Virus record (IMG/VR): IMGVR_UViG_3300028198_000317
Coordinates: 1 to 25,142 of that record
Direction: 5' to 3' (one strand)
DNA from: a virus
DNA: 25,142 nucleotides
The notes beneath the pieces are model-generated. The model was not told the origin of the DNA. It made no database searches and saw nothing but the letters and a program-made list of their open reading frames with translations. The position numbers and the translations under genes are program-made. Shown in pieces: positions 7,781-23,909 of the stretch. Each line of letters begins with the position of its first letter. Position 1 is the first letter of the stretch.

Positions 7781-7782
7781 CC

Positions 7783-8262
7783 ATGAAAAAAACGAAACAT
7801 AAAACGGTAAATGTAAGGAAACAACTCAAAGCCAGGTTGGAAAACACTGCGACTAGGCATAAAAACAAAGTTAGTTTCAGACCCACAGAACAACAAGTCT
7901 ATCATTGGTTTGGTGTAATAAACAGAGGGTTATTCAACAGTAGATTACCAAGAGTTCCAATTTACATTAAAAGGTTACACAAAGATTGGGGCAGATGTGT
8001 GGCCGACTGGGACAACAGAAAATGCAGAAAAGGAACTTTTGATCAAAGAATAATTCCTTACAACAAAACAGAAGTATTTCATTACATCGAAATGCATTGT
8101 AAGTTTCCTACTTGGAAAGATTTTATTGAAACTCTTGCACACGAAATGGTGCATCTTTATCAGATGTCATGGTTAAAAGATCCTTATTCAAATCATAATA
8201 AGAATTTCTTTGCGTGGAAAAACAAGTTTAAACTTGCAGGTTTAGGCTTATCAAGGTGTTAG
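7783..8262 (+). CDS. SprT-like zinc metalloprotease
   Basis: 159 aa. The SprT-like family includes small zincin proteases, and the human member SPRTN cuts DNA-protein crosslinks. The zinc motif HEMVH is at 120-124, set in ETLAHEMVHLYQM, with a likely third ligand His138 (SNHNKNFF). WGRC (69-72) is a typical SprT element. The N-terminus is very basic (KKTKHKTVNVRKQLKAR), which suggests DNA binding. The C-terminal zinc ribbon of bacterial SprT is missing. An in-frame TTG at 7765 adds six residues, but the ATG at 7783 is preferred. It is read toward the glycan island and overlaps its last gene by 12 bp on opposite strands. Substrate unknown: crosslinked proteins on phage DNA or a host protein are both possible. 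Confidence 0.82.
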   Translation: MKKTKHKTVNVRKQLKARLENTATRHKNKVSFRPTEQQVYHWFGVINRGLFNSRLPRVPIYIKRLHKDWGRCVADWDNRKCRKGTFDQRIIPYNKTEVFHYIEMHCKFPTWKDFIETLAHEMVHLYQMSWLKDPYSNHNKNFFAWKNKFKLAGLGLSRC

Positions 8263-8997
8263 AACCTTTTCAAACTCTTTGTAATTAATAACTCGACTGT
8301 TACCTAAGTCAGTGCCTGTTTGGAGATAGTTTAAATAATCTGGAGGATTATCATGTACCACGGTATAGTTCACGTACGGTCTCATCTTCAACATATCTCG
8401 TAAATGTTTTAGCCATCCTTCGAATATCTTATCATCATTTCGTTCTCCATAATTTTCTGTGTCTTGGTATATGTTGTTGAGTTCGCCTTTGCCGTATTCC
8501 CTGAAGTCAAACCCTAGTAGATATATGTTCTTGTGTCCGTGTACCCCCGCTGTCCAAAAAGCGGCGTTACCTGATATCCAGTGTGGGTTGTTGGGTATCA
8601 GGTGTATCATGCCCTTGCTCTGTTTCCTATTGACTTCCAAGGCCGGTCCATAGTGTACGGTCTTCAATCCAACTTCGTCCTCCACCATCTTCATTGACAT
8701 CTTGGTGTCCACCGAAAAAATAAAGTCCGGCATGAAATCTCTGTACAGTGCATTACAACCGTAAGTCTGTCCTGTTGCTTTTAACTTGTTAAGATCAAAT
8801 CCTTTTCGTGATGGCCCGTTGCCTATACAGTACGCATTTCCTCTAGGTACTGCTTTCACTTTGTCTTCGAAGTATCCTGTTTCTTGTGTACGTTTTCCCT
8901 TACGTATTATGGTGTTCAAGATAATAGTTTCACCGGTGTACGGTTCCCACTTAATAGGGTCTATCTCTTTTCTTCTACCTATCTGTATAGTTTTCAT
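8251..8997 (-). CDS. DUF115/MptE-like or sialyltransferase-like protein
   Basis: 248 aa. The N-terminal third has CIGNGPSRKGFDL (57-69) followed by TYGCNALYRDFMPDFIFSVD (78-97). This Rossmann-like signature is shared by DUF115/MptE-like proteins and by CstII/Cst-I-like sialyltransferases in phage and surface-polysaccharide clusters. Such proteins modify or transfer sugars using a nucleotide-activated donor. The mid-section has HLIPNNPHWISGNAAFW and the strand-turn YLLGFDF (about 159-165), with a Gly-Asp-Phe arrangement seen in that fold. It is the last gene of the ten-gene minus-strand run and overlaps the methyltransferase gene by 23 bp. The precise activity cannot be told. A glycan role is inferred from the island. 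Confidence 0.6.
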   Translation of the reverse strand: MKTIQIGRRKEIDPIKWEPYTGETIILNTIIRKGKRTQETGYFEDKVKAVPRGNAYCIGNGPSRKGFDLNKLKATGQTYGCNALYRDFMPDFIFSVDTKMSMKMVEDEVGLKTVHYGPALEVNRKQSKGMIHLIPNNPHWISGNAAFWTAGVHGHKNIYLLGFDFREYGKGELNNIYQDTENYGERNDDKIFEGWLKHLRDMLKMRPYVNYTVVHDNPPDYLNYLQTGTDLGNSRVINYKEFEKVLTP

Positions 8998-9544
8998 ATT
9001 CTAAAATTGATACTCCGTCATTTTGTGATAATAATTTATAATTTTTTTCTTGTAAAAAGCCAAGTAACTTTTTTTGTGAAGGCGATTGTTTGTAATTTTT
9101 GATATTGTAATTATTAGTTTCTCTGCCCACCCCAATAACTATGTCGTTATCATTGTGATCTTTGTGCCTTACATGTAATATATTTGATTTTACTTTTTTG
9201 AGTAGTGTCTCCAATTCCGATCCCCAGAGCTCCCCCATTAGGCATATTACTGCGTGTAAAAAAATAATGTCCACATGGAGATCAGATGGCAAATCATTTA
9301 TACTTTCATATAGATTTGTGTGAGGATTAAATCTTTTACAATCTAATCTGTGTTCCTGATCTGGTTCCACACCGTGTGTGGTTATACAGTTAAACTCCTT
9401 TCTTGCCTTGGCATTGAGAATGCCTTTCCAGATACCAACGTCGAGACATTTTTTATTTTGTAGAATTTCTTTACTCGGTAACCATGTGGTGTTCCAGTGG
9501 CGTTGGCAAGTTTCATAGTGTTTGCGAATCTTCCTTAGGTTCAT
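8975..9544 (-). CDS. SAM-dependent methyltransferase-like (start moved to 9544)
   Basis: 189 aa from the ATG at 9544, which overlaps the previous stop in the classic ATGA form. The longer frame to 9586 would overlap the neighbour by 46 bp and is not needed. CLDVGIWKG (33-41) is the glycine-rich SAM-binding motif I, followed by VEPDQ (motif II acid). The region from 95 to 115 (VDIIFLHAVICLMGE) fits motif IV of class I methyltransferases. The C-terminus is AT-rich and Lys/Asn-rich, unlike its GC-richer neighbours, which hints at later acquisition or loss of constraint. Probably methylates a sugar. The target is unknown, and a degraded, inactive domain cannot be excluded. Confidence 0.55.
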   Translation of the reverse strand: MNLRKIRKHYETCQRHWNTTWLPSKEILQNKKCLDVGIWKGILNAKARKEFNCITTHGVEPDQEHRLDCKRFNPHTNLYESINDLPSDLHVDIIFLHAVICLMGELWGSELETLLKKVKSNILHVRHKDHNDNDIVIGVGRETNNYNIKNYKQSPSQKKLLGFLQEKNYKLLSQNDGVSILEYENYTDR

Positions 9545-10413
9545 TTGATATATTTCTCCTCTAATCTTGCTCGAATCCTGGTCCATGGAAGTCCCTGCTC
9601 TATCTCATCTTCGAACCATTCTGTGTATGCCAGTTTGTTTGCCCATGTCAGCCTGTTGGGCATGGCCGGTGTGTTGATATCTGCCAGTTTGATGTTTCCC
9701 ACATCATGGCACAGGCTCGATTCCGATACGAACACAGGTATGCCCTTCATGACCGCCTCCATGGCAGGATTACTAGAATGGTTTACAACCGCCCACGTCC
9801 TCTCTAGTGTGGCCTTGAAATCTGTGTCGTCGTAGGTCCTATAATCTCTTTTAGGCAATCTCACCTTCACATTTTTAAATTTATTCTCATCAAATGTAAT
9901 CGTGTTACGAGGATGTGGCCTTACTAGTATCGGCCGTGTTGTGTATTTTCGTATTTCCGTTATCTGTTGTTCGATCCATGTAGACATTCTAGGAAGTCCC
10001 TTCCATTGTTCTGATGCATCGTGTTGTCCGCAAATCACTATTAGGTCACCGGTAGGATTCCATGGACGTAATTCATATTTGAACAAAGGCCAACGTTGGT
10101 CGTCAAACGTTTGATTGGCAAAATCTGCGTCTCTGTTTATACCGTTAATGCCTATCTTGAAACTGAGATTTCTACGCAGTCCCCCGACTTCTATAACGAT
10201 TACTGGTTTACCTTGGCTCCTGTATCTTTCCCATATTGATTTGTAACTTTGCATCCTGCCTCGCCACAGCACACTCCAGATCACTGCAACATCGCCGTTG
10301 GTCTCTTTGTTTACATAGACTTCGTCTCCCGAAGTCTGCATAGATTCTATAAATTTCTTAAAGATCGTTTTGCTGTTCTGTGGACCATGCGTGGGCCATG
10401 CTTCTACTTTCAT
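9541..10413 (-). CDS. Capsule-type glycosyltransferase (KpsC/KpsS-like), paralog A
   Basis: 290 aa, with the C-terminal half of the 'capsule polysaccharide biosynthesis' GT-B-like family. ILVRPHPRN (162-170) is followed by TWAVVNHSS (206-214) and AMEAVMKGIPVF (217-228), the hallmark pair in which the conserved RPHP and the small-residue SNPAMEA loop form the donor site. HDVGNIKLADIN and a C-terminal WANKLAYTEWF complete it. The N-terminal half (VAVIWSVLWRGRM) is the acceptor-side Rossmann domain. KpsC/KpsS members transfer Kdo or related sugars. The donor here is unknown. It shares a base with its neighbour (TAATG at 10413), is one of four paralogs in the window, and keeps the RPHP motif. Confidence 0.62.
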   Translation of the reverse strand: MKVEAWPTHGPQNSKTIFKKFIESMQTSGDEVYVNKETNGDVAVIWSVLWRGRMQSYKSIWERYRSQGKPVIVIEVGGLRRNLSFKIGINGINRDADFANQTFDDQRWPLFKYELRPWNPTGDLIVICGQHDASEQWKGLPRMSTWIEQQITEIRKYTTRPILVRPHPRNTITFDENKFKNVKVRLPKRDYRTYDDTDFKATLERTWAVVNHSSNPAMEAVMKGIPVFVSESSLCHDVGNIKLADINTPAMPNRLTWANKLAYTEWFEDEIEQGLPWTRIRARLEEKYIK

Positions 10414-11276
10414 TATATTTTTCTCCAGTAGTCTAGGTCTTTTATGTCTTGGCCGGCCCCTTTGAAGTCTTTCATTTTGCTTTTGCCTTCTGCCTTCCTA
10501 TTGCCTTTGAAATGATCCATGTACAGTCCTAATTCACTGTTTATGAATACGTGGTGTCCTCTAACGCCTTTCCAATAACCTATGTCGTTTACTTTTACGT
10601 TTTTCTCTTTTTGATATTTTTTTGACAAATGCCATAACGTAGAGCAATCTGTCCACTCAATTAATTCAAATATTTTGTCAGACACATACAGGTCTTCCCA
10701 GTCCTTGGTGTAGTTTTGTATTTCAGGATGATTTAGATTGTATCCTACGAATCCACATTCTGGATACTTTCCACCGTCACTTAGGTTTGGATTTTCCCTA
10801 CCCAAGTAAGTTAACATTGAATCACTGGGCAGTAGTCCTTCAAAGAACTCTTTTGGTATTGGCCTAAAGGAATATGTGTCAGCATCCAACCATATTAGGT
10901 AATCATAACCTGCAGAATTTTTTATTGCATGAGTTACACAAAAAACTTTGTTTGCAAATCTCACAGCATTCCAAAGGAAAGATCCTTTAGGTGCCATGGG
11001 TATTGGTCTACGTACACCATTTGGTATTTCGTTTATTTCACCGTTTGCCACAGGATCGTCTTTGTACTTGTTCTTAAATTTTAACAACTCGGGTTGTACA
11101 TTGTGTACGTCTAACCATTCTACTCTAGCATGTTCAAAAATATCTTGTGATTGTGCTTCGTGGTATACAACAATCTGTGTGTCTCCAGGCCAGTGTTGCA
11201 ATACACTATCTACTGCTCTCCTGGCATACTCGTTCCAGGTGCCCGGTTTGTAAGATGTTATAACTTTAATTTTCAT
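10413..11276 (-). CDS. Glycosyltransferase, GT-A type with DAD motif, copy 1
   Basis: 287 aa. The metal-binding DxD motif is DAD at 131-133, set in YDYLIWLDADTYSF, as in nucleotide-sugar-dependent GT-A enzymes (GT8/GT32-like). FLWNAVRFANKVFCV (100-114) and LTYLGREN with GGKYPECGFVGYNL flank it, and a metal-ligand His is likely in the C-terminal YMDHFKGN (about 263). Sugar donor unknown. Copy 2 (15697-16587) is a close paralog: identical in the first 13 codons, very similar from about 100 on, but divergent between 14 and 65. This suggests duplication followed by divergence or recombination in the N-terminal part. It overlaps the capsule-type gene by one base. Confidence 0.75.
   Translation of the reverse strand: MKIKVITSYKPGTWNEYARRAVDSVLQHWPGDTQIVVYHEAQSQDIFEHARVEWLDVHNVQPELLKFKNKYKDDPVANGEINEIPNGVRRPIPMAPKGSFLWNAVRFANKVFCVTHAIKNSAGYDYLIWLDADTYSFRPIPKEFFEGLLPSDSMLTYLGRENPNLSDGGKYPECGFVGYNLNHPEIQNYTKDWEDLYVSDKIFELIEWTDCSTLWHLSKKYQKEKNVKVNDIGYWKGVRGHHVFINSELGLYMDHFKGNRKAEGKSKMKDFKGAGQDIKDLDYWRKI
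10738..10967. repeat. Two conserved DNA blocks shared with GT-A copy 2
   Basis: Two stretches within GT-A copy 1 are identical at the nucleotide level to copy 2. 10935-10967 (33 nt, encoding AVRFANKVFCV) matches 16237-16269. 10738-10760 (23 nt, encoding ECGFVGYN) matches 16040-16062. Such long identity, including synonymous positions, points to recent duplication or conversion. Confidence 0.75.
11239..11276. repeat. 38-bp direct repeat, copy 1 (GT-A start)
   Basis: Thirty-eight bases, encoding the first 12 residues MKIKVITSYKPG plus two bases of the next codon, are identical to 16550-16587, the start of GT-A copy 2. The two are in the same orientation, 5.3 kb apart. They could support homologous recombination that deletes or duplicates the five genes between them. 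Confidence 0.85.
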
Positions 11277-11292
11277 GATATCGATATTTAAT

Positions 11293-12921
11293 CTACGTAG
11301 TCATATTATATTTTTTAATCCAGTCACTTACAATCATTGCTGGTATATTTGCTTTACCGGATTTGTTCCACCAATGTTGTAAAGGCACTGTCCATCCTGT
11401 TTTCATTTTGTTTACGATAACATCTGGCAATAGCCCTTTGTACGCAATCTTAGTCAAAAGTTTTGTGTCTCCTTTATCTTTTCCAATTTTCTCATCACTG
11501 TGAATATTCATGCAATATTGCATAAATGTTTTTGTTGCTAAAGGGAAACGGCCTTCCATACTGTAGGCCATTCCATATTTGTCATTCCTCATTAAAAATT
11601 CTTCAGGAACCTGTGCCACACAATCAAGTGCCATGTATGATCCTATAGGATCACCCGGATTCCACAAATCTTCGGGATAGCATTTAAGTAGTTCGTTACG
11701 TAGGATAGTTTTGTCGTATACTTTTATCGGACGTTTTATTCTGTTGATCCATTTATCTATAATGTCTGCCCAGCAAGTGAATTTTTCTTTTCTAAGTTTC
11801 CAATATTTTGGATACCCGCCCAATACCTCATCTCCCATATCTCCTGCCATTGTTACCACTATACCGTTGTCATGCAACACTTTATTGGTGTAACAATACA
11901 TTGCAAGGCTTGGATTGTACACAGGTTGTTCTATGTAGTATATCGAATCGTTCCAATATTGCTCTACTATTTTAGGAGTAATGGTTACTTCAGTATGATT
12001 AAAATTATTAATGTTTGCCAATACTTTGGCACAATCGGCATCTTCGTTGTGATCGCCGTCCTTTGGATGTATGTAGTTTGGTTCCATTCTATTAGTAAAA
12101 GTATTTGCTTCTCCCAACACATTTCTTAACTCGTATGCCACCAAACTCGAGTCTAGTCCACCACTTAAAAATACACCAATTTTTCTTCTTCCAATACTGG
12201 CCATTTTTATAGATTTTTGTGCTATTGTTTTAAATTCTTCTAGATTAAACTTTTTGTTTGAATTAGGTTTAATGAATACTCTTTTTGTGTTTGTGATTTT
12301 TTTATTTGTAATATCGTAAACAATAGTTTCTCCCGCCAATAACTTTTTAATTCCTGTAAAGAAAGTGTTACGTAACGGATTTATTCCTGTGGTAGTCATG
12401 CAACCTAATGCTAGTTCATCTTGTTTCCTGCTACCAGGCACTTTGTCTAACATTCCTTTTATCTCAGAGCCAAACACCAAACCCTCTTTTATTTCTGCAT
12501 AGTACACAGGTTTCACACCTGCATGGTCTCTGCTTAACGTAAGTGTGTTCTTATCGATTTCGTAGTAAGCAAAACCGTGCATAGAATCTATCTCATCAAT
12601 AAATGACAGTCCAAATTTATCCAACCCCCAAGCAAGTAATTCTGTATCACATCCTGAAGTGTCGGTGAAGTCTTTGTACTTTCCTTTTAATTCGTAATAG
12701 TTAAAGATCTCTCCATTGTATACAAGTTTGTTTCCTTTGGGAGTAGTCCACGGCTGTGTTGCATTATCTGGTTCACCCATTATGCTTAACAAGTTATGAC
12801 CCAACGTTATTTTTTCGTTATGCCAAACACTTGAACCGTCAGGTCCTCGGTGTTTACATATATCTATAAATTCATTTATAAATTTTGGATTGTGTTCGGT
12901 TATACCGTATATACCACACAT
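11293..12921 (-). CDS. asnB: Asparagine synthase (glutamine-hydrolysing), AsnB-type
   Basis: 542 aa, near full length (E. coli AsnB 554). The N-terminal class II glutaminase domain begins MCGIYG with Cys2 as nucleophile and has CKHRGPDG (22-29), YNGEIFNY (68-75) and SGCDTELL (89-96). The C-terminal ATP pyrophosphatase domain has SGGLDSS (253-259) and a KTGWTVPLQHWW end. Its textbook reaction makes asparagine from aspartate, ATP and glutamine. In sugar clusters, AsnB-like proteins also amidate uronic acids or other glycan carboxylates. The ORF overlaps the capsule-type gene (TAATG at 12921) and sits mid-operon, so an amide-bearing glycan is the likely product. AT-rich sections suggest separate acquisition. 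Confidence 0.88.
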   Translation of the reverse strand: MCGIYGITEHNPKFINEFIDICKHRGPDGSSVWHNEKITLGHNLLSIMGEPDNATQPWTTPKGNKLVYNGEIFNYYELKGKYKDFTDTSGCDTELLAWGLDKFGLSFIDEIDSMHGFAYYEIDKNTLTLSRDHAGVKPVYYAEIKEGLVFGSEIKGMLDKVPGSRKQDELALGCMTTTGINPLRNTFFTGIKKLLAGETIVYDITNKKITNTKRVFIKPNSNKKFNLEEFKTIAQKSIKMASIGRRKIGVFLSGGLDSSLVAYELRNVLGEANTFTNRMEPNYIHPKDGDHNEDADCAKVLANINNFNHTEVTITPKIVEQYWNDSIYYIEQPVYNPSLAMYCYTNKVLHDNGIVVTMAGDMGDEVLGGYPKYWKLRKEKFTCWADIIDKWINRIKRPIKVYDKTILRNELLKCYPEDLWNPGDPIGSYMALDCVAQVPEEFLMRNDKYGMAYSMEGRFPLATKTFMQYCMNIHSDEKIGKDKGDTKLLTKIAYKGLLPDVIVNKMKTGWTVPLQHWWNKSGKANIPAMIVSDWIKKYNMTT

Positions 12922-13901
12922 TACATTCCTAACTTTTCTTTGAATCTTTTAAATATTGTGCCGTCTCTAATTTCTTTTTCACTCCACAATTTATAGCCAA
13001 GGTCATTGAGCCATTGCGTCCTATCTGGATATTCTGGTGTTTCTATGTTGTTAAGGTTCTTGTTTGCTACAGGCCAACTCAGTGCAAGATCTGAAGTATT
13101 GAATGTGGGAATTCCACGAACACACGAGTCAACACCGGCAGTAGAATTGTGTGTAACAACAGCATGACAGTTGGCTATTGCTTCTTGGAAATGGAATCTG
13201 TAGTATTTTTTCTCATCACCTTGAAAATATTTTTGACCAATGTGTACTTCTACGTCTTCGGGAAATTCGTTCTTTCGTTCTTCTATGTTGACAACGTGAT
13301 TAGGATGTGGCCTCACAATAAATTTTCTATCTGTTATGGGTCTTAATTTTTCATACACTCCATGGAACCATTCAATGGGATCGAGATCGTTCATGCTCCA
13401 GTTGTCCTTGGGTTGTAGAACAAACATGATAGGATCTTCTTGATCAGATTTCCTCCATGGATCATTTTTAATATTCCACCTGGCCTTCGCGGCCTCCCAT
13501 CTATCAGGAGGACTGTTGTCTGACAAGAAGTCTCCGTTGTTCATGGGTGAAAATAACGAAACCCTCCAATGATGCTTTGGCCCATGCACATTACCAAAAC
13601 TTGAAAGTAATCCACCGTCAAATGTTATTATCTTGATTCCTTTTTTCTTTGCACGTTCCACCAGATCCCGTCTACGTCCTTTGGTGTGATGCTTCTGATT
13701 GCTACCACCATAACCAAACATGCAACCAATTGGGTGTGTGGGTTCCATTTCGTCTTTGGTCCATTCTCCTGTTTTTGTTTCGTTAACCATGATTGGTTCG
13801 TCACCACAGGCTTCTATTCCTTCGGCCATGTATTTTAACAGATCGTAACTTGCTCCTCTACGTCTGTCTTTCACTGTCCTTCTAAATATTTCAACTTTCA
13901 T
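12921..13901 (-). CDS. Capsule-type glycosyltransferase (KpsC/KpsS-like), paralog B
   Basis: 326 aa, the longest of the four capsule-type paralogs. RPHPNH (197-202) and THNSTAGVDSCVRGIPTF (250-267) carry the family signature, preceded by the beta strand CHAVV. The N-terminal Rossmann half has a glycine-rich MFGYGGSNQK (61-70) and a run rich in Arg/Lys, with IITFDGGLLS (91-100) as the second strand-loop. The insert between 100 and 160 explains the extra length over paralog A. It overlaps the next gene by one base and the preceding one by 11 bp. The donor sugar and whether it is a full transferase are unknown. Confidence 0.62.
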   Translation of the reverse strand: MKVEIFRRTVKDRRRGASYDLLKYMAEGIEACGDEPIMVNETKTGEWTKDEMEPTHPIGCMFGYGGSNQKHHTKGRRRDLVERAKKKGIKIITFDGGLLSSFGNVHGPKHHWRVSLFSPMNNGDFLSDNSPPDRWEAAKARWNIKNDPWRKSDQEDPIMFVLQPKDNWSMNDLDPIEWFHGVYEKLRPITDRKFIVRPHPNHVVNIEERKNEFPEDVEVHIGQKYFQGDEKKYYRFHFQEAIANCHAVVTHNSTAGVDSCVRGIPTFNTSDLALSWPVANKNLNNIETPEYPDRTQWLNDLGYKLWSEKEIRDGTIFKRFKEKLGM

Positions 13902-14706
13902 CTAGTATCCTCCAAGCATATCCGTTTCTTAATTCTTCTGCTGTAAATTGACCGTATGCCATTGAATAGTATAAAGGTTCTCGATCAATGTAGCAAGGAT
14001 TTTCTATTTTAGAGAAATCTGTTTCTGATATAGGTGCACACGCATTGTGAGGATCAGTGAAGCACGGAATGCCTCTAGTGGTTGCTTCTAAAGAGATATT
14101 GGAGTTGTACGTCACAACAGCATAAGCGTCATTCCAGTCTATGGGACCACTTGGTTTACTGTCATCTTTACCAGTGACTATCATTCCCCCGTTTGCATCA
14201 TGTCCCATGATAGGGTTGTACCCTTTGTTCTTTACAATGATAGGTCTGTCTGTGTTGTCCTTCAGTGTTGCTAATGTTTTGTCTAGCCAGTCATGTACAC
14301 CAAAAAATTCCTTCATAGCATTGGACGGTGGACACACTATTATGTTCTTTCCGTCCTTCTTCCATGGGTGTATAGGCCATGGGAATGAATTTTTAAAACG
14401 ATCATCTGGCCTGTCCTCTTGCCAGTTCTTCAAATGACTATTCTTTACAACCTTAACATAGTAAGGGTTGTTCCTCGTTTCTCCCCAGTAAGGTCTGTCC
14501 ATGTAGTAGAAATCTATGTTATTTTTCTCTGCCCATTTGTACACGAGATGTGTGCCACGCAGTACACCAAACATCACTGCTTTTGTGCAATCCGTCTTGT
14601 TTATGATTTCAATTGGTGCGAGTTTCTTGGCTCCTGGTAAACCTTGTGCGGCCCAATCAACATATTTTTCTGTGAGTGCCCTATTAGTGGAACTAACGTA
14701 GATCAT
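13891..14706 (-). CDS. Capsule-type transferase relative, paralog C (no RPHP)
   Basis: 271 aa. AYAVVTYNSNISLEATTRG (194-212) matches the C-terminal signature of the capsule-type family, but where A and B have RPHP, C has RPIIVKNKGYN (154-164). Its N-terminal half has YYMDRPYWGETRNNPYYVKV (67-86), closely matching YWFADTPYFGRFDNN in paralog D at 18377, so C and D form a subfamily of their own. The donor site has therefore changed, suggesting a different substrate or an inactive fold. C-terminal AYGQFTAEELRNG is near identical to D (AYQQFTPEEIENG). It overlaps the Gmd gene by 14 bp. Confidence 0.55.
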   Translation of the reverse strand: MIYVSSTNRALTEKYVDWAAQGLPGAKKLAPIEIINKTDCTKAVMFGVLRGTHLVYKWAEKNNIDFYYMDRPYWGETRNNPYYVKVVKNSHLKNWQEDRPDDRFKNSFPWPIHPWKKDGKNIIVCPPSNAMKEFFGVHDWLDKTLATLKDNTDRPIIVKNKGYNPIMGHDANGGMIVTGKDDSKPSGPIDWNDAYAVVTYNSNISLEATTRGIPCFTDPHNACAPISETDFSKIENPCYIDREPLYYSMAYGQFTAEELRNGYAWRILDES

Positions 14707-15676: not shown

Positions 15677-15696
15677 TTAATGTAATTATGTCTAAT

Positions 15697-16587: not shown

Positions 16588-16589
16588 TG

Positions 16590-17672: not shown

Positions 17673-17674
17673 GA

Positions 17675-17703
17675 TTGTATTTTGCCAGTAAGTATACTAT
17701 AAT
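17675..17703 (+). promoter_or_regulatory. Sigma70-like promoter for the plus-strand glycan run
   Basis: TTGTAT (17675-17680), a 17-bp spacer and an exact TATAAT (17698-17703) give a good sigma70 layout. Initiation near 17710 would leave a very short leader to the ATG at 17713, or 15 nt to the alternative ATG at 17725. Confidence 0.55.
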
Positions 17704-17723
17704 TATTGTATTATGTTAACCAA
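17696..17723 (-). promoter_or_regulatory. Divergent sigma70-like promoter for the minus-strand run
   Basis: On the minus strand, TTGGTT (17723-17718), a 16-bp spacer and TATAGT (17701-17696) form a moderate match. Its -10 overlaps the TATAAT of the plus-strand promoter, so the two would compete. The start site near 17689 lies about 16 nt before the ATG at 17672, a leader length similar to that of the uvsW operon promoter. Confidence 0.4.
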
Positions 17724-18402
17724 TATGTTCATTAATGGTTGTTCGTTCCTTACTACCAGACCAAGAGATAATGTACACACTCACTGTGGACTAGAATTGG
17801 CCAAACTTATGGAATTAAATGTCGCAGTAAATCTGGCCGGAGGAGGCAGGGGATCAAAAAGAATGATGTGGACTACTAGAACATGGTGCGAGAAGTTTCC
17901 CGAACAAGCAGAAAACTGTTTCTTCTTGATAGGATCCAGTGGAGGAAACAGATTTGATTATCCTACCAGTGATGGATACAAAGCACATAAATTTCCTACA
18001 ATGAAGACTACTTGGAAAACGTGGGATCCTAATAGGGATGAGCACACAAAAAGTTTTACAAAATACCTATTCAGAGCAGGAATGGACTTAGATCAAACCA
18101 CACAGATAGAATCAACACTGGCGTTGTTAGATTTGCAAGACTATTTTAAAAATAAAAATTATCCATATGTGTTTTACAACACACTGTCTGACGCAGACAT
18201 AACAAACGAGGACATAAAGTTTATGTTTGACAAGATTGACAAGAAGAGATTTTTCAAACCGGACACCAGTCATCTGGATTACACTGTTGCAAACAAGCAA
18301 GAATGCAAATCCGGAGACCCCCATCCTAGCACCGAAGGACACAAGGATTGGGCAAGACAACTTAAAGAATTCATAGATGCTAACAATTTACGCACCATTT
18401 AA
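17713..18402 (+). CDS. SGNH/GDSL-type hydrolase
   Basis: 229 aa. The pattern of an SGNH esterase or lyase is present: block I NGCSF (8-12) with Ser as nucleophile, an Ala-Gly-Gly-Gly loop AGGGRGS (42-48) for the oxyanion hole, and block V DPHPSTEGH (202-210) giving the catalytic Asp/His. FFLIGSSGG (about 70-78) holds the third block. In glycan clusters such enzymes remove or transfer O-acetyl groups. The ATG at 17713 adds four residues (MLTN) before MFINGCSF; the ATG at 17725 is an equally plausible start and fits the promoter better. It is the first gene of the plus-strand run and overlaps the next by 26 bp. Confidence 0.68.
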   Translation: MLTNMFINGCSFLTTRPRDNVHTHCGLELAKLMELNVAVNLAGGGRGSKRMMWTTRTWCEKFPEQAENCFFLIGSSGGNRFDYPTSDGYKAHKFPTMKTTWKTWDPNRDEHTKSFTKYLFRAGMDLDQTTQIESTLALLDLQDYFKNKNYPYVFYNTLSDADITNEDIKFMFDKIDKKRFFKPDTSHLDYTVANKQECKSGDPHPSTEGHKDWARQLKEFIDANNLRTI

Positions 18403-19189
18403 TAATAGAAACAGTAAAGCATGGGAAGTTTTCAACGGTGTTGAGAAATCATGGCCGGATCAGATTACAAAGTTAGACAATGCTGTGGAAAAAGATCCAG
18501 TCAGCAACAGCATGTTCTGGGGATTCGTTGGCAACAACAGAGAGATGGTACAAAAGTTAGATGCACGTAATCATACATATTGGTTTGCAGACACACCATA
18601 CTTTGGAAGATTTGACAACAATAATTTGAAACCAGACAATCACTACTGGCGTATTTGTAAAAATACAATCCATGTTCCTTACCTGAAAGATTGCAAAGCA
18701 GATAGATTTGAAAAATTTGGTATGAAGATAAAGGCACCAAACTTTGCTGGTAAGCATGTTTTAGTTTGTCCTAGTTCCACAGGCATACACCAATACTTGA
18801 ACAGACCCAATTGGACAAACGAGACAATAGAACAGATTAAGAGATACACGGACAGACCTATCAAACTTCGACACAAGCCTAGGGGCAGGGGTACATCAGG
18901 ACCAAGTGAGGCAACGGTACCCCTATCCGAGGATCTCAAAGAAGCGTGGTGTGTTGTAACAAGTTGTTCCATAGCGGCGGTTGAAGCAATCTGTGAGGGC
19001 ATACCGGTGTTCTGCGATAACATAAGTTTTGCTGTAGACGTTGGCAACGTGGAACTATCGGATATTGAGAATCCTTATTATGGCGGTCCTGAACCTTGGC
19101 TGTACAGCCTAGCATACCAACAGTTCACTCCCGAAGAGATAGAAAACGGCACAGCAGTAGAAATACTAATGGACAAAGGAATACTATGA
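18377..19189 (+). CDS. Capsule-type transferase relative, paralog D
   Basis: 270 aa. TSCSIAAVEAICEGIPVF (195-212) is the capsule-type signature. Like paralog C it lacks RPHP and has RPIKLRHKPRG (160-170) in its place. WFADTPYFGRFDNN (69-82) and the tail AYQQFTPEEIENG mirror paralog C, so these two form a subfamily split between the two divergent runs. NVELSDIENPYY shares the NIKLADIN position with paralog A. The start overlaps the SGNH gene by 26 bp, and the stop overlaps the next ATG as ATGA. A sugar transferase role is inferred, but loss of the RPHP loop leaves the activity uncertain. Confidence 0.55.
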   Translation: MLTIYAPFNNRNSKAWEVFNGVEKSWPDQITKLDNAVEKDPVSNSMFWGFVGNNREMVQKLDARNHTYWFADTPYFGRFDNNNLKPDNHYWRICKNTIHVPYLKDCKADRFEKFGMKIKAPNFAGKHVLVCPSSTGIHQYLNRPNWTNETIEQIKRYTDRPIKLRHKPRGRGTSGPSEATVPLSEDLKEAWCVVTSCSIAAVEAICEGIPVFCDNISFAVDVGNVELSDIENPYYGGPEPWLYSLAYQQFTPEEIENGTAVEILMDKGIL

Positions 19190-19812
19190 AGATAGAAAAA
19201 GTAAATGACTTTTGGGTGCCATCGAATGATATACACATAGAACAATGGAAGTCAGGAGCACCATTTACACAGAACAAATGCCTCAACAAGTTTATAAAAT
19301 ATTGCGAGTCACAAACTAAAAAAATGAAAACAGTCATTGATGTTGGTGCGTGGTGTGGGACATGGTCAAAAGCCATCGAGCCGTTCGCTAAAAAAGTAAT
19401 TGCTTTTGAGCCTGACAAAACACATTTTGAATGTTTACAACGTAATTGCACTATAAATTGTACACCAAGAATGGAGGCTGTTGGGTCTCAACTACAAGAA
19501 GTATCACTAACTGAAGATGACTTCACACAGGCAAAGCGGGTTGATAAAGAAGGCAATATACGAATGACCACTATTGACAGTATGGAGTTTACAGATGTTG
19601 ATATGATAAAGATTGATGTTGAAGGTTATGAAATGGAAGTGTTAAAAGGTGCAACAAAAACTTTAGAAACTGTAAAATATCTGATGATAGAATTAAACAA
19701 CAACACCAAAAAATATGGCAGTAATAATCTTGAAATTGAAAAATATTTAAAGTCATTAGGCTTTAAGGTATTAATGGATCATTGGCCTGACAAAGTTTTT
19801 TACCGTGCATAA
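19186..19812 (+). CDS. FkbM-family methyltransferase 1 (start moved to 19186)
   Basis: 208 aa. FkbM-family enzymes O-methylate sugars and other hydroxyls using SAM. Motif I is VIDVGAWCGTWS (50-61), the acidic motif II is FEPDKTH (74-80), and the family block IKIDVEGYEMEVLKG is at 141-155, which places the protein in FkbM with confidence. The frame is open back to 19096, but the ATG at 19186 is preferred because it overlaps the previous TGA as ATGA and the extra 30 residues lie in another gene. This protein and the one at 21593 may methylate different positions. Confidence 0.87.
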   Translation: MKIEKVNDFWVPSNDIHIEQWKSGAPFTQNKCLNKFIKYCESQTKKMKTVIDVGAWCGTWSKAIEPFAKKVIAFEPDKTHFECLQRNCTINCTPRMEAVGSQLQEVSLTEDDFTQAKRVDKEGNIRMTTIDSMEFTDVDMIKIDVEGYEMEVLKGATKTLETVKYLMIELNNNTKKYGSNNLEIEKYLKSLGFKVLMDHWPDKVFYRA

Positions 19813-19831
19813 CTTAAATTAAATACTCAAA

Positions 19832-20836
19832 ATGAAAATTTTTATAACAGGTGTCGCAGGATTTTTAGGTTCTCACCTAGCAGATTTAATGATATCAGAA
19901 GGCCACACTGTTGCTGGTAATGATAACATGATTGGTGGATACACAGACAATGTTCCCCAAAATGTAGAGTTCCATCAAGTGGACTGTTGCGATTTAGAAA
20001 ACATGACGAAGGCCATGGAAGGCTGTGACATTGTTTATCATACCGCCGCAACAGCATACGAAGGACTGTCAGTATTTTCTCCTGTGCTTGTTACAAGAAA
20101 TATATTCGAAGCGTCCGTGACAACCATTACAGCGGCCATAAGAAACAAAGTTAAACGTATTGTGTATTGTTCAAGTATGGCGAGATATGGTCATCATGAT
20201 GAGTTGCCTTACAAAGAAACTTACGAATGTCGTCCCCAAGATCCATACGGTATTGCAAAGAAAGCCGGAGAAGATGTGCTTAAAAATTTATGTGAAACGC
20301 ACGGAGTTGAGTATGTAATCGCTGTGCCACACAACATTGTTGGACCAAGACAGAAGTATGATGATCCGTTTAGAAACGTTATGTCTATTATGTTGAACAG
20401 AATGTTACAGGGCAAACAACCAATCATATACGGAGATGGTGAACAGCAAAGATGTTTTAGTTACATAGACGATTGTTTATATTGTCTGAATGCACTTGCG
20501 TTTCAAGACAATGTGGTTGGAGAGGTTATTAACATAGGACCAGACGAAGAACCTATAACAATCAATGAGTTAGCGGAGGCCTGTGCAAACGAAACAGGAC
20601 TGAACCTAGATCCTATACATCACAAAGATAGACCCAAAGAAGTCAAACTAGCAGTGTGTTCATCAGACAAAGCAAGGGATTTACTAGGTTATAGTACAGC
20701 AACCAATATGCGACAGTCGGTGAAAAAGACAGCGGAGTACATAAGGACTAGGGGTACCAAAAAGTTTCAATACCATCTACCATTGGAAATTATTAATGAC
20801 CAGACTCCAGATACCTGGAAGAACAAGTTGATATGA
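19832..20836 (+). CDS. NAD-dependent sugar epimerase/dehydratase
   Basis: 334 aa, extended short-chain dehydrogenase. NAD-binding GVAGFLG (7-13), catalytic-region SSM (114-116) with Tyr139 and Lys143 (PYGIAKK), and HNIVGPRQ and GDGEQQRCFSYIDD (about 204-217), typical of nucleotide-sugar epimerases. It looks closer to UDP-hexose 4-epimerases than to GDP-fucose synthase: there is no fucose-synthase Cys motif that I can recognise. Since Gmd is in the same island, it could still act on a GDP-sugar intermediate. The product is unknown. It lies 19 bp after the FkbM gene and overlaps the next start by 4 bp. Confidence 0.82.
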   Translation: MKIFITGVAGFLGSHLADLMISEGHTVAGNDNMIGGYTDNVPQNVEFHQVDCCDLENMTKAMEGCDIVYHTAATAYEGLSVFSPVLVTRNIFEASVTTITAAIRNKVKRIVYCSSMARYGHHDELPYKETYECRPQDPYGIAKKAGEDVLKNLCETHGVEYVIAVPHNIVGPRQKYDDPFRNVMSIMLNRMLQGKQPIIYGDGEQQRCFSYIDDCLYCLNALAFQDNVVGEVINIGPDEEPITINELAEACANETGLNLDPIHHKDRPKEVKLAVCSSDKARDLLGYSTATNMRQSVKKTAEYIRTRGTKKFQYHLPLEIINDQTPDTWKNKLI

Positions 20837-21546
20837 TTTCTTTCTGTTGTCCATCTAGAGGCAGGCCCGAACTTGCAAAAAGGTTAGTTGACACAGCAAC
20901 GCAGACACAAAAAGGTGACACCGAGTTTCTTTTTTATCTTAACGACGATGATGAAAAATTAGAACAGTATAAGGATCTACTAGACGAAAAGCATTATACT
21001 GTAGGACCAAATCAATCGACTTGCTACAGTTGGAACTTGATGGCCGATAAGGCCTCGCACGATATAGTAATGCTTATGGGCGACGATGTACAGGTACAAA
21101 CGCAAGGCTGGGATCAACTTATTGCAGACGAATTTCTTAGGTACGAGGACAGGATCTTAATGGTAGTACCAAGCGACGGCAGGAACAAAGGCACTAAGAA
21201 GCACGGTGATGAGACAATGCTCTGGCCAGATCAACCATTGCCGTCGGCTCACTTCGCCGTGCATAAGAATTGGACCAATACGTTAGGCTATCTTGCTCCA
21301 CCGTTTTTTTGGCATTGGCACGTGGACACGTACACACAGAAAGTTGCACGTAAATTGAACAGATGTCTCTATTTGCCAACAGTAACATTCAAAGCCAAAA
21401 AAATTATTAACGACAACGCAGGGAAACAAATACGTAAGAATCTAAACATTAATGAACGGGATAATTTTGTTTGGAATAAAGTAAGACAGAGATGTTTACA
21501 AGCAGACGTACTTGCGTTAGAACAAAAAATAAATCAACCTATGTAA
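20833..21546 (+). CDS. GT2-like glycosyltransferase
   Basis: 237 aa. MISFCCPSRGRPELAKRL opens in the style of GT2 enzymes, followed by a candidate metal-binding NDDD (37-40) and a second, MLMGDDVQ (80-87), where GDD would serve as the metal-binding DxD equivalent. A His-rich segment, PPFFWHWHVDTYTQ (around 156-169), could close the active site. No membrane span. It is the last gene of the plus-strand run. The acceptor is unknown; GT2 is the best guess over a GT-A family of its own. Confidence 0.65.
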   Translation: MISFCCPSRGRPELAKRLVDTATQTQKGDTEFLFYLNDDDEKLEQYKDLLDEKHYTVGPNQSTCYSWNLMADKASHDIVMLMGDDVQVQTQGWDQLIADEFLRYEDRILMVVPSDGRNKGTKKHGDETMLWPDQPLPSAHFAVHKNWTNTLGYLAPPFFWHWHVDTYTQKVARKLNRCLYLPTVTFKAKKIINDNAGKQIRKNLNINERDNFVWNKVRQRCLQADVLALEQKINQPM

Positions 21547-21585
21547 AAACAGTGCTTGTTTTCTTTCATTATAAAATGGCAATTG

Positions 21586-21604
21586 AATGTGTTTATACAT
21601 TTTT
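21586..21604 (+). terminator. Weak hairpin between convergent genes
   Basis: AATGT (21586-21590) pairs with ACATT (21597-21601) over a 6-nt loop, followed by a short T run. The stem is short and AT-rich and overlaps the stop of the minus-strand FkbM gene. It may end the plus-strand run weakly; I put little weight on it. Confidence 0.3.
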
Positions 21605-22141
21605 AACCATGAGATAATCCATATTCATCATTTTATCAATACCTTTGCATTCATACCCCCATTCTTTTAATAATTCGACTGCATCAAGATTACCTTTGTT
21701 TTGCTCTACTACTATTACAGGAAAATATTTTTTGATTGTTTCTTCACTACCTTTGATTGCTCTCAGTTCATAACCTTCGATATCGTATTTTATGAAACCG
21801 ACATTTTTGTAATTAAAACTATCAAGTGTTTTGATAGGAACTTTGACATTTCCATTGTCCTTTATCCTGCCAACTTTGTTACTGGTAGTAAATGAATGAC
21901 CATTTTGTTCTCCAATACCACAAACAGTGTAGGTAAATTTTGTAATGTCTTTCACATTGTTTTGGAATTCTTTAATTTTATTCCTGAAATCGAAAGCAAA
22001 AATGTGTTGGAAATCCTTCTCCATCTGTGCTGAGAATCCACCTTCCCTACAACCAACATCAATGCCGACTGTCCCTCGTTGAATATATGGTTTCGCCATG
22101 GCGTATGTCTCTCGCATACTTCTTAAATGTTGCTCGTCCAT
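21593..22141 (-). CDS. FkbM-family methyltransferase 2
   Basis: 182 aa. Motif I IDVGCREGGFS (27-37), acidic FAFDFRN (48-54), and IKYDIEGYELRAIKG (117-131) mark an FkbM-type SAM methyltransferase. It differs strongly from the copy at 19186, so it is not a recent duplicate. It is more AT-rich than most neighbours. It converges with the plus-strand run 46 bp away and is the last gene of the third minus-strand run. The substrate is probably a sugar hydroxyl. Confidence 0.83.
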   Translation of the reverse strand: MDEQHLRSMRETYAMAKPYIQRGTVGIDVGCREGGFSAQMEKDFQHIFAFDFRNKIKEFQNNVKDITKFTYTVCGIGEQNGHSFTTSNKVGRIKDNGNVKVPIKTLDSFNYKNVGFIKYDIEGYELRAIKGSEETIKKYFPVIVVEQNKGNLDAVELLKEWGYECKGIDKMMNMDYLMVKNV

Positions 22142-22180
22142 TATAATTTTTTCCCTATTTTACGTAATTTCAAAATGTAA

Positions 22181-22609
22181 TTATCGCAATTTAGACAGTA
22201 ATGTTTGCCAGTGATCGTTTGTCATATCTATCTGCACCAATGGATGACGTATATATTTTCTATTTTTATGTATAAGTTTTATATTTTTTGATTTCGTTAC
22301 GAGAAATGTATTTGGTAGATATACTAGTTTTTTGTCATTCACACACACGTAGGACTGTGTGTTATCTGCACGTTCTTTGAAGAACCACAAACACATTATT
22401 TCTTTGTTAAAATCTATTTCAGAGAAATCATCTTTAAATTCAAAACCAATTCTGTACAGTGTATCAAATTCTTGCCAAGTCTTGTGATCAAAGTCATTTT
22501 GATTTTCATATAGTCTGTCATATTCTTTTGTGTCAAAAATATCCTGTGCATAGATATGTGTTATAGGATCTTTGAAGTAATGATTTGGTTTAAGTTTATC
22601 CCAATTCAT
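22181..22609 (-). CDS. Hypothetical protein in the glycan island
   Basis: 142 aa, not recognised. The start resembles small phage 2-oxoglutarate oxygenase-like proteins (HYFKDPITHIYAQDIFDTKEYDRL, 10-33) but no HxD or second His that would bind iron is seen, so this is not claimed. The rest is AT-rich and Lys/Asn/Asp-rich, with a strand-rich middle (SYVCVNDKKLVYLPNTF, about 86-102) and a C-terminal IRHPLVQIDM. Its start codon shares a base with the stop of the GT8-like gene (TAATG at 22609). Possibly a degenerate or very divergent enzyme acting on sugars. Confidence 0.55.
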   Translation of the reverse strand: MNWDKLKPNHYFKDPITHIYAQDIFDTKEYDRLYENQNDFDHKTWQEFDTLYRIGFEFKDDFSEIDFNKEIMCLWFFKERADNTQSYVCVNDKKLVYLPNTFLVTKSKNIKLIHKNRKYIRHPLVQIDMTNDHWQTLLSKLR

Positions 22610-23283
22610 TATGAACTGAATAGGTTAATTAGTTCTTTCTTCCAATCATCCGCGTACTCGCAATCTCTGTAACCGTCGAACCATGGCCCGCCTTCGGTGT
22701 AGTGTAGAATTTTAGGTGTGCCGTCTCTAGGTTCTTTGTACCACTCAACCAACCAATTGTATTCTAGCGGCAACGAACCTATCTCATTGTCATCCAACCA
22801 ACTGAACCTGTGTAGGAACTTTGGTGATTCTTCATTCAGCAAATCTGGTGTTAGGATTTTGTTCTTTGGATGTTCGCAGTTCCATAATACCATACTACTC
22901 CAGTTTTTTCTTGGATACACCGTTTGTGTTTGTCCATCCATTTTTGTTGTTTCTTTGGGTGTGTAGTCGTGTTGTACAACTACCACTGCTTTACTCGTAT
23001 CACAGTATTTCACAAGTTCGTGGCTTGGTATCTTCCACAGGAAGTCGCAATCACAGAACACTGCCCAACCTTTGAAGTCATTCATATAGGGCACGAAGAA
23101 TCTAGTGAACGTGAACTCTGTTGATGCCAACTTGTCCACAGGTCTGGTATAGAGTCCTTGGTCTCGCATTTGTTTTTGCTTGAGGGGGATAACTTCTGCT
23201 GACGGATCTCTACGCCTGATGCTGTGTTCACATACCTGGTATGCTATGTCTTCTCTACTGTCGTGCCCAACGTAAATTTTCAT
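22609..23283 (-). CDS. GT8-like glycosyltransferase (start moved to 23283)
   Basis: 224 aa from MKIYVGHDSRED. The longer frame (23319) would overlap the HAD gene by 40 bp, whereas the ATG at 23283 overlaps its TGA as ATGA. The metal-binding DxD is DCD at 78-80 (AVFCDCDFLW). STEFTFTRFFVPY (54-66) gives the conserved Arg-bearing helix, and HYTEGGPWFDGY near 196-207 supplies the C-terminal metal-ligand His, together a GT8/GT-A signature. Unlike the 10413/15697 pair, it is short and ends soon after that motif. Confidence 0.72.
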   Translation of the reverse strand: MKIYVGHDSREDIAYQVCEHSIRRRDPSAEVIPLKQKQMRDQGLYTRPVDKLASTEFTFTRFFVPYMNDFKGWAVFCDCDFLWKIPSHELVKYCDTSKAVVVVQHDYTPKETTKMDGQTQTVYPRKNWSSMVLWNCEHPKNKILTPDLLNEESPKFLHRFSWLDDNEIGSLPLEYNWLVEWYKEPRDGTPKILHYTEGGPWFDGYRDCEYADDWKKELINLFSS

Positions 23284-23909
23284 TTTCTTCCTGATAGTAA
23301 TTTGTGTATGCCTTGCCAATTACTTACACGTATAATATCAGGATGTTGTAAATCTTGATTGTATGGATGGTCTATTAATATGGGCTTTAAACCGTATTTG
23401 AGCCCGGCTACAGCGTTCTTAGGCTTGTCCTCGACCCAATATAGTCCGGTATCGTGGAACTCCGCTAATGCACTATCTTTGTCTGCTCCTGTGCCTAGGA
23501 TATGGTAATTTGTGAATATATGTTCGCCAAACAGTTCTCCCAATCTCTTCTTACGTAATTGCTGTCCGGGTATGTCTGATGTCTGCGATGTGATTGGTAT
23601 GAACGTCCACCCCTCGGCCGCCAACAGTTTGACCCATGTCTGTGATTCCAGCATCGGTCTTTGTGTTCCCATCCAAGCACTTCTATTAAATTCTCTGATC
23701 TCTTGTCTTATTGTATCTTTGCTGACTCCATACCTGATTGCCATGTCATATTCGCCCAGCATGTCTGGCAATTGTTTATATGGATAATATCTCGTTCCAC
23801 TTTCATCGAAATATGATCTCAGCGACATCCATTTAGAAAAATGGTGTTCCCATTCTAACAGCACACCGTCTACGTCTGTGAGTATTACTCTGTTATTTGA
23901 TATCGGCAT
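23280..23909 (-). CDS. HAD-superfamily phosphatase
   Basis: 209 aa. Motif I DVDGV (12-16) with nucleophile Asp12 and Asp14, motif II ITSQ (106-109), a likely motif III Lys in GADKDSAL (141-148), and motif IV VEDKPKNA (159-166) give the full HAD set. The helical cap between 20 and 95 is small (C1 type). Candidates are a nucleotide 5'-phosphatase, as found in phages, or a sugar-phosphate phosphatase for the glycan pathway. It overlaps the recombination-side gene at 23893 by 17 bp, so it may be an old core gene to which the island attached. Confidence 0.75.
   Translation of the reverse strand: MPISNNRVILTDVDGVLLEWEHHFSKWMSLRSYFDESGTRYYPYKQLPDMLGEYDMAIRYGVSKDTIRQEIREFNRSAWMGTQRPMLESQTWVKLLAAEGWTFIPITSQTSDIPGQQLRKKRLGELFGEHIFTNYHILGTGADKDSALAEFHDTGLYWVEDKPKNAVAGLKYGLKPILIDHPYNQDLQHPDIIRVSNWQGIHKLLSGRK

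Follow-up and report, generated by a model that had tools for sequence, protein, structure and literature searches.

Why would a phage keep a long set of sugar-modifying genes in the middle of its recombination genes, and on which molecule would their products act? The question is raised by a virus record of 25,142 bases, IMGVR_UViG_3300028198_000317 (the window, analyzed over its full length), in which 19 tightly packed open reading frames (ORFs; 8251-23909) lie between uvsX/uvsY (23893-25142) and uvsW (4907-6370), both flanks being on the minus strand. A first-pass annotation had described a phage-borne glycan island of about 18 genes splitting the recombination core, a description that holds, and had guessed that the set either remodels the host surface or decorates the virion. 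Of these two guesses we lean to the second, namely that a virion protein, probably one belonging to the head or the tail, is glycosylated in the cytoplasm, and regard the first as a leading, if rather unlikely, rival. The earlier reading had missed a near-constant backbone of genes among which cassettes are set, a CMP-sugar (cytidine monophosphate sugar) signature in the core glycosyltransferases (GTs), and a paralogue of one island gene in the head gene block.

The paralogue was found in G010, a marine relative with a record of 196,581 bases. A second gene of the type of the island's GT42-like gene, g8251, occupies 65290-65940 in this record and is matched by the island profile at 65,410-65,922 (E 4.5e-26). 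It stands in a block (61327-67930) that reads portal (PHROG 9e-111), GT42-like gene, acidic gene, head maturation protease (7e-59), conserved gene and major head protein (2e-101). The arrangement recurs among the best 80 of 267 head-block loci in IMG/VR, counts being restricted to loci with enough flank: the portal is upstream of the GT42-like gene in 71/71 testable loci, and the protease, the major head protein or a scaffold (a label given by position only) is downstream of it in 41/41. Conversely, the head-block profile matches all 29 GT42 proteins of the island (E 5e-30 to 8e-22). Both genes are present, 51-60 kb apart, on four contigs (G010, G431, G012 and G004), and in each of seven further records with the head-block gene only, the island position would by arithmetic fall beyond the contig end. 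A serine/threonine-rich loop of the major head protein was considered as the acceptor and rejected, its conservation in 23 sequences showing nothing by itself.

The comparison of the island itself rests on marine relatives collected from IMG/VR with uvsW (the best 80 of at least 598 loci). Forty-one records were searched for uvsX and 30 were taken on; the 11 left out comprise eight without a uvsX match, two with a truncated match and G017, whose figures are very near those of G004. G012 and G006 were dropped, no uvsW being found in the piece read, and the resulting 28 relatives make, with the window, 29 intervals. The anchor figures of G009 and G010 are identical; both are kept in the tallies over 29 intervals and in the 18 promoter gaps treated below, and the near-duplicate G010 is excluded from the tallies over 28 intervals (cassette co-occurrence and identity pairs). 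ORFs of the relatives were called by a greedy longest-ORF script, with starts that may be wrong and small genes that may be missed, and many asnB, uvsW and head-block loci are short fragments, counted only with enough flank. In the window the ORFs form the three runs seen earlier: the first (8251-17672, minus) has ten ORFs, the second (17713-21546, plus) five and the third (21593-23909, minus) four. The first two diverge from a 40-bp gap and the third continues into uvsY. The features are as follows, with family numbers (c) from clustering and counts over the 29 intervals.

8251-8997, minus: g8251 (c7), GT42/Maf-like glycosyltransferase, backbone; 29/29; profile weakly matches CstII/Cst-I (E 0.005-0.016).
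8975-9586, minus: possible S-adenosylmethionine (SAM) methyltransferase (c28), cassette; Methyltransf_23 E 0.053, below cut-off; 4/29.
9541-10413, minus: g9541 (c6), glycosyltransferase with predicted KpsC/WbbB fold, backbone; 29/29; RxHP in 29/29, QXXXS replacing QXXXD in 29/29.
10413-11276, minus: GT10413 (c4), probable GT-A glycosyltransferase with DxD, backbone; c4 in 29/29.
11293-12921, minus: asnB-like glutamine-dependent amidotransferase, cassette; Asn_synthase 7e-41 and GATase; 20/29.
12921-13901, minus: g12921 (c5), GT of the g9541 family, backbone; 29/29; RPHP in 29/29, QXXXN in 29/29.
13891-14706, minus: g13891 (c9), GT of the g9541 family with the HP motif lost; 28/29; RxHP in 0/28.
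14693-15676, minus: gmd, GDP-mannose 4,6-dehydratase; Pfam 8e-117; usually with an extra c4 GT.
15697-16593, minus: second c4 GT, of the gmd cassette; 58% identical to GT10413.
16590-17672, minus: GT61 glycosyltransferase (c3), backbone; Pfam 4e-21; 29/29.
17673-17712, no strand: divergent promoter gap; a sequence scan gives sigma-70-like elements for either strand.
17713-18402, plus: DUF6071, SGNH-hydrolase-like (c11); DUF6071 1e-8; 25/29.
18377-19189, plus: g18377 (c2), GT of the g9541 family with the HP motif lost, backbone; 29/29; RxHP in 0/29.
19186-19812, plus: FkbM methyltransferase (c12); 4e-16; 23/29; ORF listed from 19096, likely ATG at 19186.
19832-20836, plus: nucleotide-sugar epimerase/dehydratase (c19), cassette with c18; 1e-47.
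20833-21546, plus: GT2-like glycosyltransferase (c18); Glycos_transf_2 0.002, below cut-off; PHROG glycosyltransferase 1e-28.
21593-22141, minus: second FkbM methyltransferase (c26), cassette; 4e-12; 4/29.
22181-22609, minus: c14, with no Pfam or PHROG match; 19/29.
22609-23319, minus: c1, glycosyltransferase-like, backbone; 29/29; PHROG 28018 1e-56.
23280-23909, minus: HAD-like protein (c0); 29/29; PHROG 420 (unknown function); overlaps uvsY.

Most of the gene identities given previously are borne out by Pfam (gmd, the epimerase, the asparagine synthase, GT61 and the two FkbM proteins); the ORF called an SGNH hydrolase carries the Pfam name DUF6071, the SGNH label being a reading of its motifs, and the GT2 transferase and the methyltransferase at 8975 fall below the cut-off. 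For GT10413 no credible Pfam or PDB relative was found, and D136 and D138 are invariant across 32 aligned sequences of its family. The c1 protein is 49% identical to a cyanophage gene product annotated as GT family 24. The HAD label of c0 is a reading of its DxD motif, and this gene could be part of the uvsXY operon instead of the island.

Between uvsY and uvsW the 29 intervals measure 11.3-19.0 kb, and all of them share eight families in a fixed order (c0, c1, c2, the GT61 family c3, c4, c5, c6 and c7), with a ninth backbone family, c9, in 28. The check proposed in the first-pass annotation, a comparison of relatives from uvsX to uvsW, accordingly returns the same backbone throughout, and since the interval recurs in 28 other marine contigs with all its anchors, it is neither a chance arrangement nor an assembly accident. 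Moreover, 32 of the best 80 uvsW loci have more than 3.5 kb upstream and all 32 carry a g8251 relative there, and 38 of 49 asnB loci have uvsX, uvsY, uvsW or g6372 nearby (the remaining 11 were left out).

The remaining families are found in part of the 29 intervals (DUF6071/SGNH-like 25, FkbM c12 23, asnB 20, c18/c19 12, FkbM c17 12, gmd 5), and the cassettes, which are asnB-like, sulfotransferase, oxygenase, FkbM, gmd with a GT, or epimerase with a GT, occupy set positions. Over 28 intervals c18 and c19 always occur together (11/11) and never apart, c17 and c19 are mutually exclusive (12 with c17, 11 with c19, none with both, five with neither), and two c4 copies are present in four of the five gmd intervals and in no other. 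Between c5 and c4 an interval carries either asnB or a sulfotransferase, lacks the two or, in one case, has them together. Other cassettes include two sulfotransferases, LicD, radical SAM and ferredoxin proteins, more FkbM and DUF6071 genes, and two oxygenase-like families, of which c16 matches a 2-oxoglutarate (2OG) oxygenase model below the cut-off and c15 matches proteins of Synechococcus phage S-SCSM2R annotated as 2OG-Fe(II) oxygenases. Sugar-nucleotide enzymes thus travel with a GT and decorating enzymes are interchanged, which is the logic of an O-antigen or capsule locus. In G026, asnB appears as two ORFs (clusters 13 and 36), either a broken gene or a sequencing error.

Intervals with almost the same uvsW frequently diverge within the island, in the manner of serotype loci. 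In 56 pairs from the 28 intervals with uvsW at least 96% identical, the pair falls below 80% identity in 79% of cases for GT61 (56 pairs), 62% for g9541 (56), 86% for the SGNH-like gene (44) and 97% for FkbM (29), and in 0% for uvsX (56) and for g4423, g3106 and the DNA polymerase III piece (55 each). Median identities in the flanks are 98 for uvsY, 96 for g4423, 95 for g3106, 92 for the polymerase III piece and 90 for uvsX, and in the island 67 for GT61, 70 for c5, 69 for c6, 78 for GT42 and 43 for c9 (46 pairs), as well as 51 for SGNH (44 pairs), 52 for FkbM (29) and 65 for asnB (16). Some island genes are less affected (c1 91, c2 89, HAD-like 87, and epimerase 93 in five pairs), and g6372, outside the island, is variable too (median 87). 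The simplest reading of these identities would be exchange within conserved flanks. The G+C content is 0.35-0.43 inside the island and 0.36-0.45 outside, so nearly constant that it bears no mark of a recent import from bacteria.

Two of the core enzymes were placed by modeled fold. The AlphaFold2 (AF2) model of g8251, built from 28 sequences, has a predicted local distance difference test score (pLDDT) of 76, the other four models reaching 40-60. It matches Maf 5mu5 (VIA Z 11.4, root mean square deviation (rmsd) 4.3, 185 aligned) and CstII/Cst-I 1ro8 (VIA Z 10.8, rmsd 3.6, 169 aligned), followed by HPPK 8sd5 (Z 9.7), and its three Foldseek matches at E<=0.001 are all CstII (TM scores 0.40-0.47). 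We read this predicted fold as that of GT42/Maf (DUF115-like) enzymes, with Maf and CstII tied and GT42 not separated from Maf. In a profile alignment the GNGPS and CN segments of g8251 align with segments of CstII that we take to include CMP-binding residues. The model of g9541 (pLDDT 82) is closest to KpsC (VIA Z 13.6, rmsd 3.5, 231 aligned), other GT-B matches having VIA Z 9-10.9 and rmsd mostly >6, and 25 of its 26 Foldseek matches at E<=0.001 are KpsC, WbbB or KrkA (TM 0.30-0.54, with large rmsd). For g9541, the only member so modeled, this argues for the modified GT-B fold of KpsC and WbbB.

Mutual profile matches join g9541, g12921, g13891 and g18377 into one family. In KpsC and KrkA, as outlined in PMC10148158 and PMC12887879, QXXXD carries the nucleophile and (K/R)XHP serves CMP. 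The residue at +4 of QXXXD is S in 29/29 g9541 sequences, N in 29/29 g12921, A or S in 28/28 g13891 and G or S in 29/29 g18377, the last two having P in place of Q as well; (K/R)XHP is found in 29/29 g9541 and 29/29 g12921, and in 0/28 g13891 and 0/29 g18377. A classical retaining transferase of 3-deoxy-D-manno-oct-2-ulosonic acid (Kdo), of families GT99, GT107 or GT140, was therefore rejected, the nucleophile motif being absent in all four. The paralogues have the fold (modeled for g9541) and partly the CMP site in common with Kdo transferases and, judged by these motifs, stand outside GT99/GT107/GT140. Since this motif is missing, we can only infer the donors; linkage with CMP-ulosonate genes in other phages suggests that they are CMP-sugars. 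S-SCSM2R has annotated KdsB (CTP_transf_3 9e-34) and KdsA (DAHP_synth_1 7e-45), and in phage DLP_6 a GT29 sialyltransferase domain adjoins a c1 relative. In the S-SCSM2R stretch, KdsA/KdsB, for CMP-Kdo synthesis, lie at 12111-13532, separated by two genes from the c1 relative.

With regard to the lineage, the flanking genes are recognized by profile matches (UvsY PHROG 2e-16, UvsW 3e-75, primase 4e-37). Of 50,697 phage records searched with UvsW, 3041 matched. The nearest isolates are Phosso, a Sinorhizobium phage of 469 kb (54%), the PA5oct-type phages of Pseudomonas (52%) and Atu_ph07, an Agrobacterium phage of 490 kb (52%). As these UvsW relatives are jumbo phages, the window belongs to a marine relative of jumbo phages and not to a T4-like cyanophage, the setting first suggested for it and ruled out by this kinship. 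Phosso and Atu_ph07 keep the order uvsX, uvsY, uvsW, polymerase III piece, virion gene and primase, with 2.8 and 6.0 kb, respectively, between uvsY and uvsW; no island gene was found in the stretches read, nor any match to the island GT42 profile in either phage.

The first-pass annotation had named beforehand, as what would speak against it, the same set in a bacterial chromosome lacking phage flanks. The three contigs in bacterial genomes that carry a core GT all have phage neighbors, two of them uvsW and primase and the third, a truncated one, g6372 and the SprT-like gene. These metagenome-assembled genome (MAG) contigs, labeled Pelagibacter, Rickettsiales and Verrucomicrobia, are probably phage contigs of this lineage brought in by binning contamination. 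Among 385 genomes of the class of the Pelagibacter MAG, the sole full-length core-GT match was that MAG, with three partial matches, and asnB as query at E<=1e-80 again hit that MAG alone (1/385). A bacterial chromosomal origin was rejected on both grounds. The MAG labels disagree and allow no host assignment.

Beyond the island, toward uvsW, lie an SprT-like gene (7765-8262, plus) and then g6372. The former (PF10263 6e-7) stands at the island edge on the strand opposite to its surroundings and is present in 28/29 intervals. At 2290-2880 the window has a separate 196-residue DNA polymerase III alpha-like gene, whose place is conserved in Phosso and Atu_ph07. No tRNA gene was found in the window, and an Rfam search gave no match.

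On this basis we hypothesize how a virion glycan might be built. The backbone GTs, several of them of CMP-ulosonate-transferase type, would assemble a core oligosaccharide from donors, such as CMP-Kdo or CMP-nonulosonate, that the host may supply. Each cassette of a sugar-nucleotide enzyme and a GT would add one sugar, and other cassettes would trim the glycan by methylation, amidation, sulfation or oxidation. The head-block GT42/Maf-like paralogue is a candidate for the enzyme that attaches the initial sugar to a head protein. Particles could then differ in serotype as their outer sugars vary. In its complete form, a marine jumbo-phage serotype system in which the head-block enzyme starts the glycan of a head protein, near-constant GTs (among them KpsC-fold enzymes with a replaced nucleophile) and swappable cassettes extend and vary it, and antigenically diverse particles result, the proposal is a tentative one, to which we give somewhat less than even chances.

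Several points weigh against virion glycosylation. The donors, the acceptor, the order of steps, the timing and the benefit are what we infer, and the glycoprotein and its acceptor site are putative. The g9541 family lacks the Kdo-transferase nucleophile, GT42-like enzymes act on lipo-oligosaccharide too, with Maf and CstII tied as best fold, and position in an operon alone does not prove a substrate. Related genes in three other phages, Mosig, S-SCSM2R and DLP_6, are not among virion genes. Finally, the continuation of the third run into uvsXY and the rarity in the island of a late-promoter-like word hint at non-late expression.

The last point can be followed further. In the divergent gap, sigma-70-like pairs scoring at least 9/12 are found for either strand in 17 of 18 intervals, and shuffled sequences reach this score in 21-30% of cases. 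Across the island as a whole, promoter-like words occur at chance frequency, and window-wide scans are at chance for promoters (50 found, 47.7 expected) and terminators (9 found, 11.5 expected). The word [ACT]ATAAATA, which we take to resemble the T4 late promoter, has 34 sites in G010 and lies at most 70 bp upstream of 24 of its 206 ORFs, a position that by arithmetic an even spread would give to about one of the 34 sites. Eight of these ORFs were scanned; three are unknown, and five have a virion annotation (tail sheath, baseplate wedge, baseplate hub, tail protein and virion protein). The word precedes 3/548 island ORFs; the Fisher figure of 1e-12 is descriptive only, the sequences being related and the distance limits unequal (70 bp and 8-75 bp), and it used 24 island ORFs for G010 where the same analysis counts 23. 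As a control, the word precedes 0/47 portal, 0/79 head-block GT42-like, 0/70 protease and 0/35 major head protein starts. The head block is thus likewise without it, and a lack of the word is no sign of non-late expression, although the continuation into uvsXY leans to early or middle timing for part of the island. The control takes away one objection to virion glycosylation; our weighting of the readings is unchanged by it. The sole copy of the word in the window (1775, minus) precedes a virion structural gene at 948-1751.

Remodeling of the host surface, which we hold to be rather unlikely, would have the enzymes work on precursors of lipopolysaccharide (LPS) or capsule at the host membrane's inner face, with host export of the product and a receptor changed early against competing phages. 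Enzymes of the KpsC, WbbB and CstII types do build or cap bacterial LPS and capsule, and serotype-like diversity would fit, as would possible non-late expression, a point weakened by the head-block control. The authors of a pelagimyophage survey favor modification of the O-chain, as outlined in PMC7029224. Nevertheless, no membrane or initiating enzyme was found in the island: Pfam detected no initiating phosphoglycosyltransferase, flippase, polymerase or exporter among the island proteins of the window (19) or among 20 representatives of the cassettes, which do not extend to a few families seen on one contig only; this is in line with what had been noted from the window. A crude hydropathy cut-off is exceeded by 12 of 548 ORFs in the 29 intervals, ten of them only just (1.61-1.75). 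Of the two that are clearly hydrophobic, one is short and doubtful as an ORF and the other is a relative of g6372, which lies outside the island. The paralogue within the head block also argues against the host surface, as do related GT sets inside the virion blocks of other phages.

Such sets lie among virion genes in three of six lineages (CcrBL9, ct7QV12 and ctDrO704) picked, non-exhaustively, from the match lists. In Caulobacter phage CcrBL9 a set directly follows tail/tail-fiber genes and precedes the endolysin; it comprises an annotated alpha-2,3-sialyltransferase, two members of the g9541 family (4e-12 and 7e-24), a c1 relative (2e-39), a methyltransferase and a GT9, and the sialyltransferase gave no match to the island GT42 profile. 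Relatives of g9541 and of c4 are present in the podovirus ct7QV12, where that of g9541 is one gene from the terminase, and in ctDrO704 a c1 relative lies between the major capsid and stabilization genes. In the other three, Pelagibacter phage Mosig has c1, c2, c4, c9 and FkbM relatives next to the genes for RuvC and ribonucleotide reductase and, away from this set, a GT42-like gene, the c1 relative of S-SCSM2R is near psbA, and DLP_6 has no annotated virion gene in the 20.7 kb read, with an endolysin nearby. Separately, in Pelagibacter phage HTVC008M (752-6900 of the piece read there) a Nol-like carbamoyltransferase and two 2OG oxygenases come after a GT42-like gene; a third oxygenase is nearby, and the group stands beside the gp41-loader gene. 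A link to the published phiCbK glycoproteins was dropped, the term glycosyl being absent from the main text of PMC3556154.

It is very unlikely that the product has nothing to do with virion or receptor and is instead soluble, lipid-linked or exported, such as a storage glycan, a small glycolipid or an effector: the acceptor being a candidate only leaves room for it, but serotype-like variation suggests an exposed antigen and the GT42 paralogue stands in the head block. It is scarcely probable that the GTs decorate a modified base against nucleases, as phage GTs do in other systems (outlined in PMC12619734), for although the island adjoins replication and recombination genes and the distant relative Phosso has a PF00303 gene (hydroxymethyl-pyrimidine synthase type), none was found in seven marine records, all fragments, or in Atu_ph07, the kinds of enzyme encoded speak for glycosylation of glycans or proteins, and sulfotransferase, LicD and amidation cassettes would in our judgement be unusual for DNA.

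GT genes of large marine phages are often taken as tools for host LPS or phage DNA (PMC7029224 and PMC12619734, in outline); the head-block GT42/Maf-like gene and the serotype-like locus make the virion a concrete, testable acceptor. If virion glycosylation is correct, phage particles in the sea would differ by surface sugar as bacteria do by O-antigen, with effects on adsorption, grazing, aggregation and antibody recognition, and the KpsC-fold family without the known nucleophile is offered for studies of mechanism. No description of this locus, or of a phage with a GT42-like gene among its head genes, was found in the literature, in a search that was not aimed at the head-block gene itself and lay outside most subscription journals.

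Among known systems, a Wzx/Wzy or ABC-type O-antigen or capsule locus differs in its initiating enzyme, flippase, polymerase and exporter, none of which was found in the island. With KpsC, WbbB and KrkA (GT107, GT99 and GT140) the fold is common, (K/R)XHP is found in two of the four island paralogues and QXXXD in none. Mycobacteriophage virion glycosylation reportedly takes far fewer genes than the island, and we know of no serotype-like locus in it. Its glycans lie on capsid and tail tube subunits, as outlined in PMC12619734, which also presents the moraphages, jumbo phages from aquatic habitats that have predicted Bacteroidota hosts and, in their core, four putative glycosyltransferases. Pelagimyophages and cyanophages, in the account of PMC7029224, likewise have LPS-type GT genes in a variable region; they are of a different lineage and combine tail fibers and GTs in one hypervariable region. 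GT clusters are thus known in pelagimyophages, cyanophages and moraphages, with host LPS, DNA or the virion discussed as targets in these same accounts. Chlorovirus PBCV-1 encodes its own GTs and carries a conserved core glycan on its major capsid protein (PMC7826918, in outline), but it is a eukaryotic virus with N-linked glycans, whereas the island belongs to a phage and has GT42/KpsC-type enzymes and a putative glycoprotein. Flagellin glycosylation islands, as outlined for Geobacillus in PMC5109656, have in common with the phage island soluble GTs, sugar-nucleotide enzymes, FkbM methyltransferases, a Maf-type enzyme and high variability; the phage locus differs in having uvsX/uvsY and uvsW as flanks and no flagellar genes, and its Maf-fold enzyme has 248 residues against 632 in Maf 5mu5. 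Glycosylation of flagellin by Maf is cytoplasmic according to PMC4065374, as we propose for the island.

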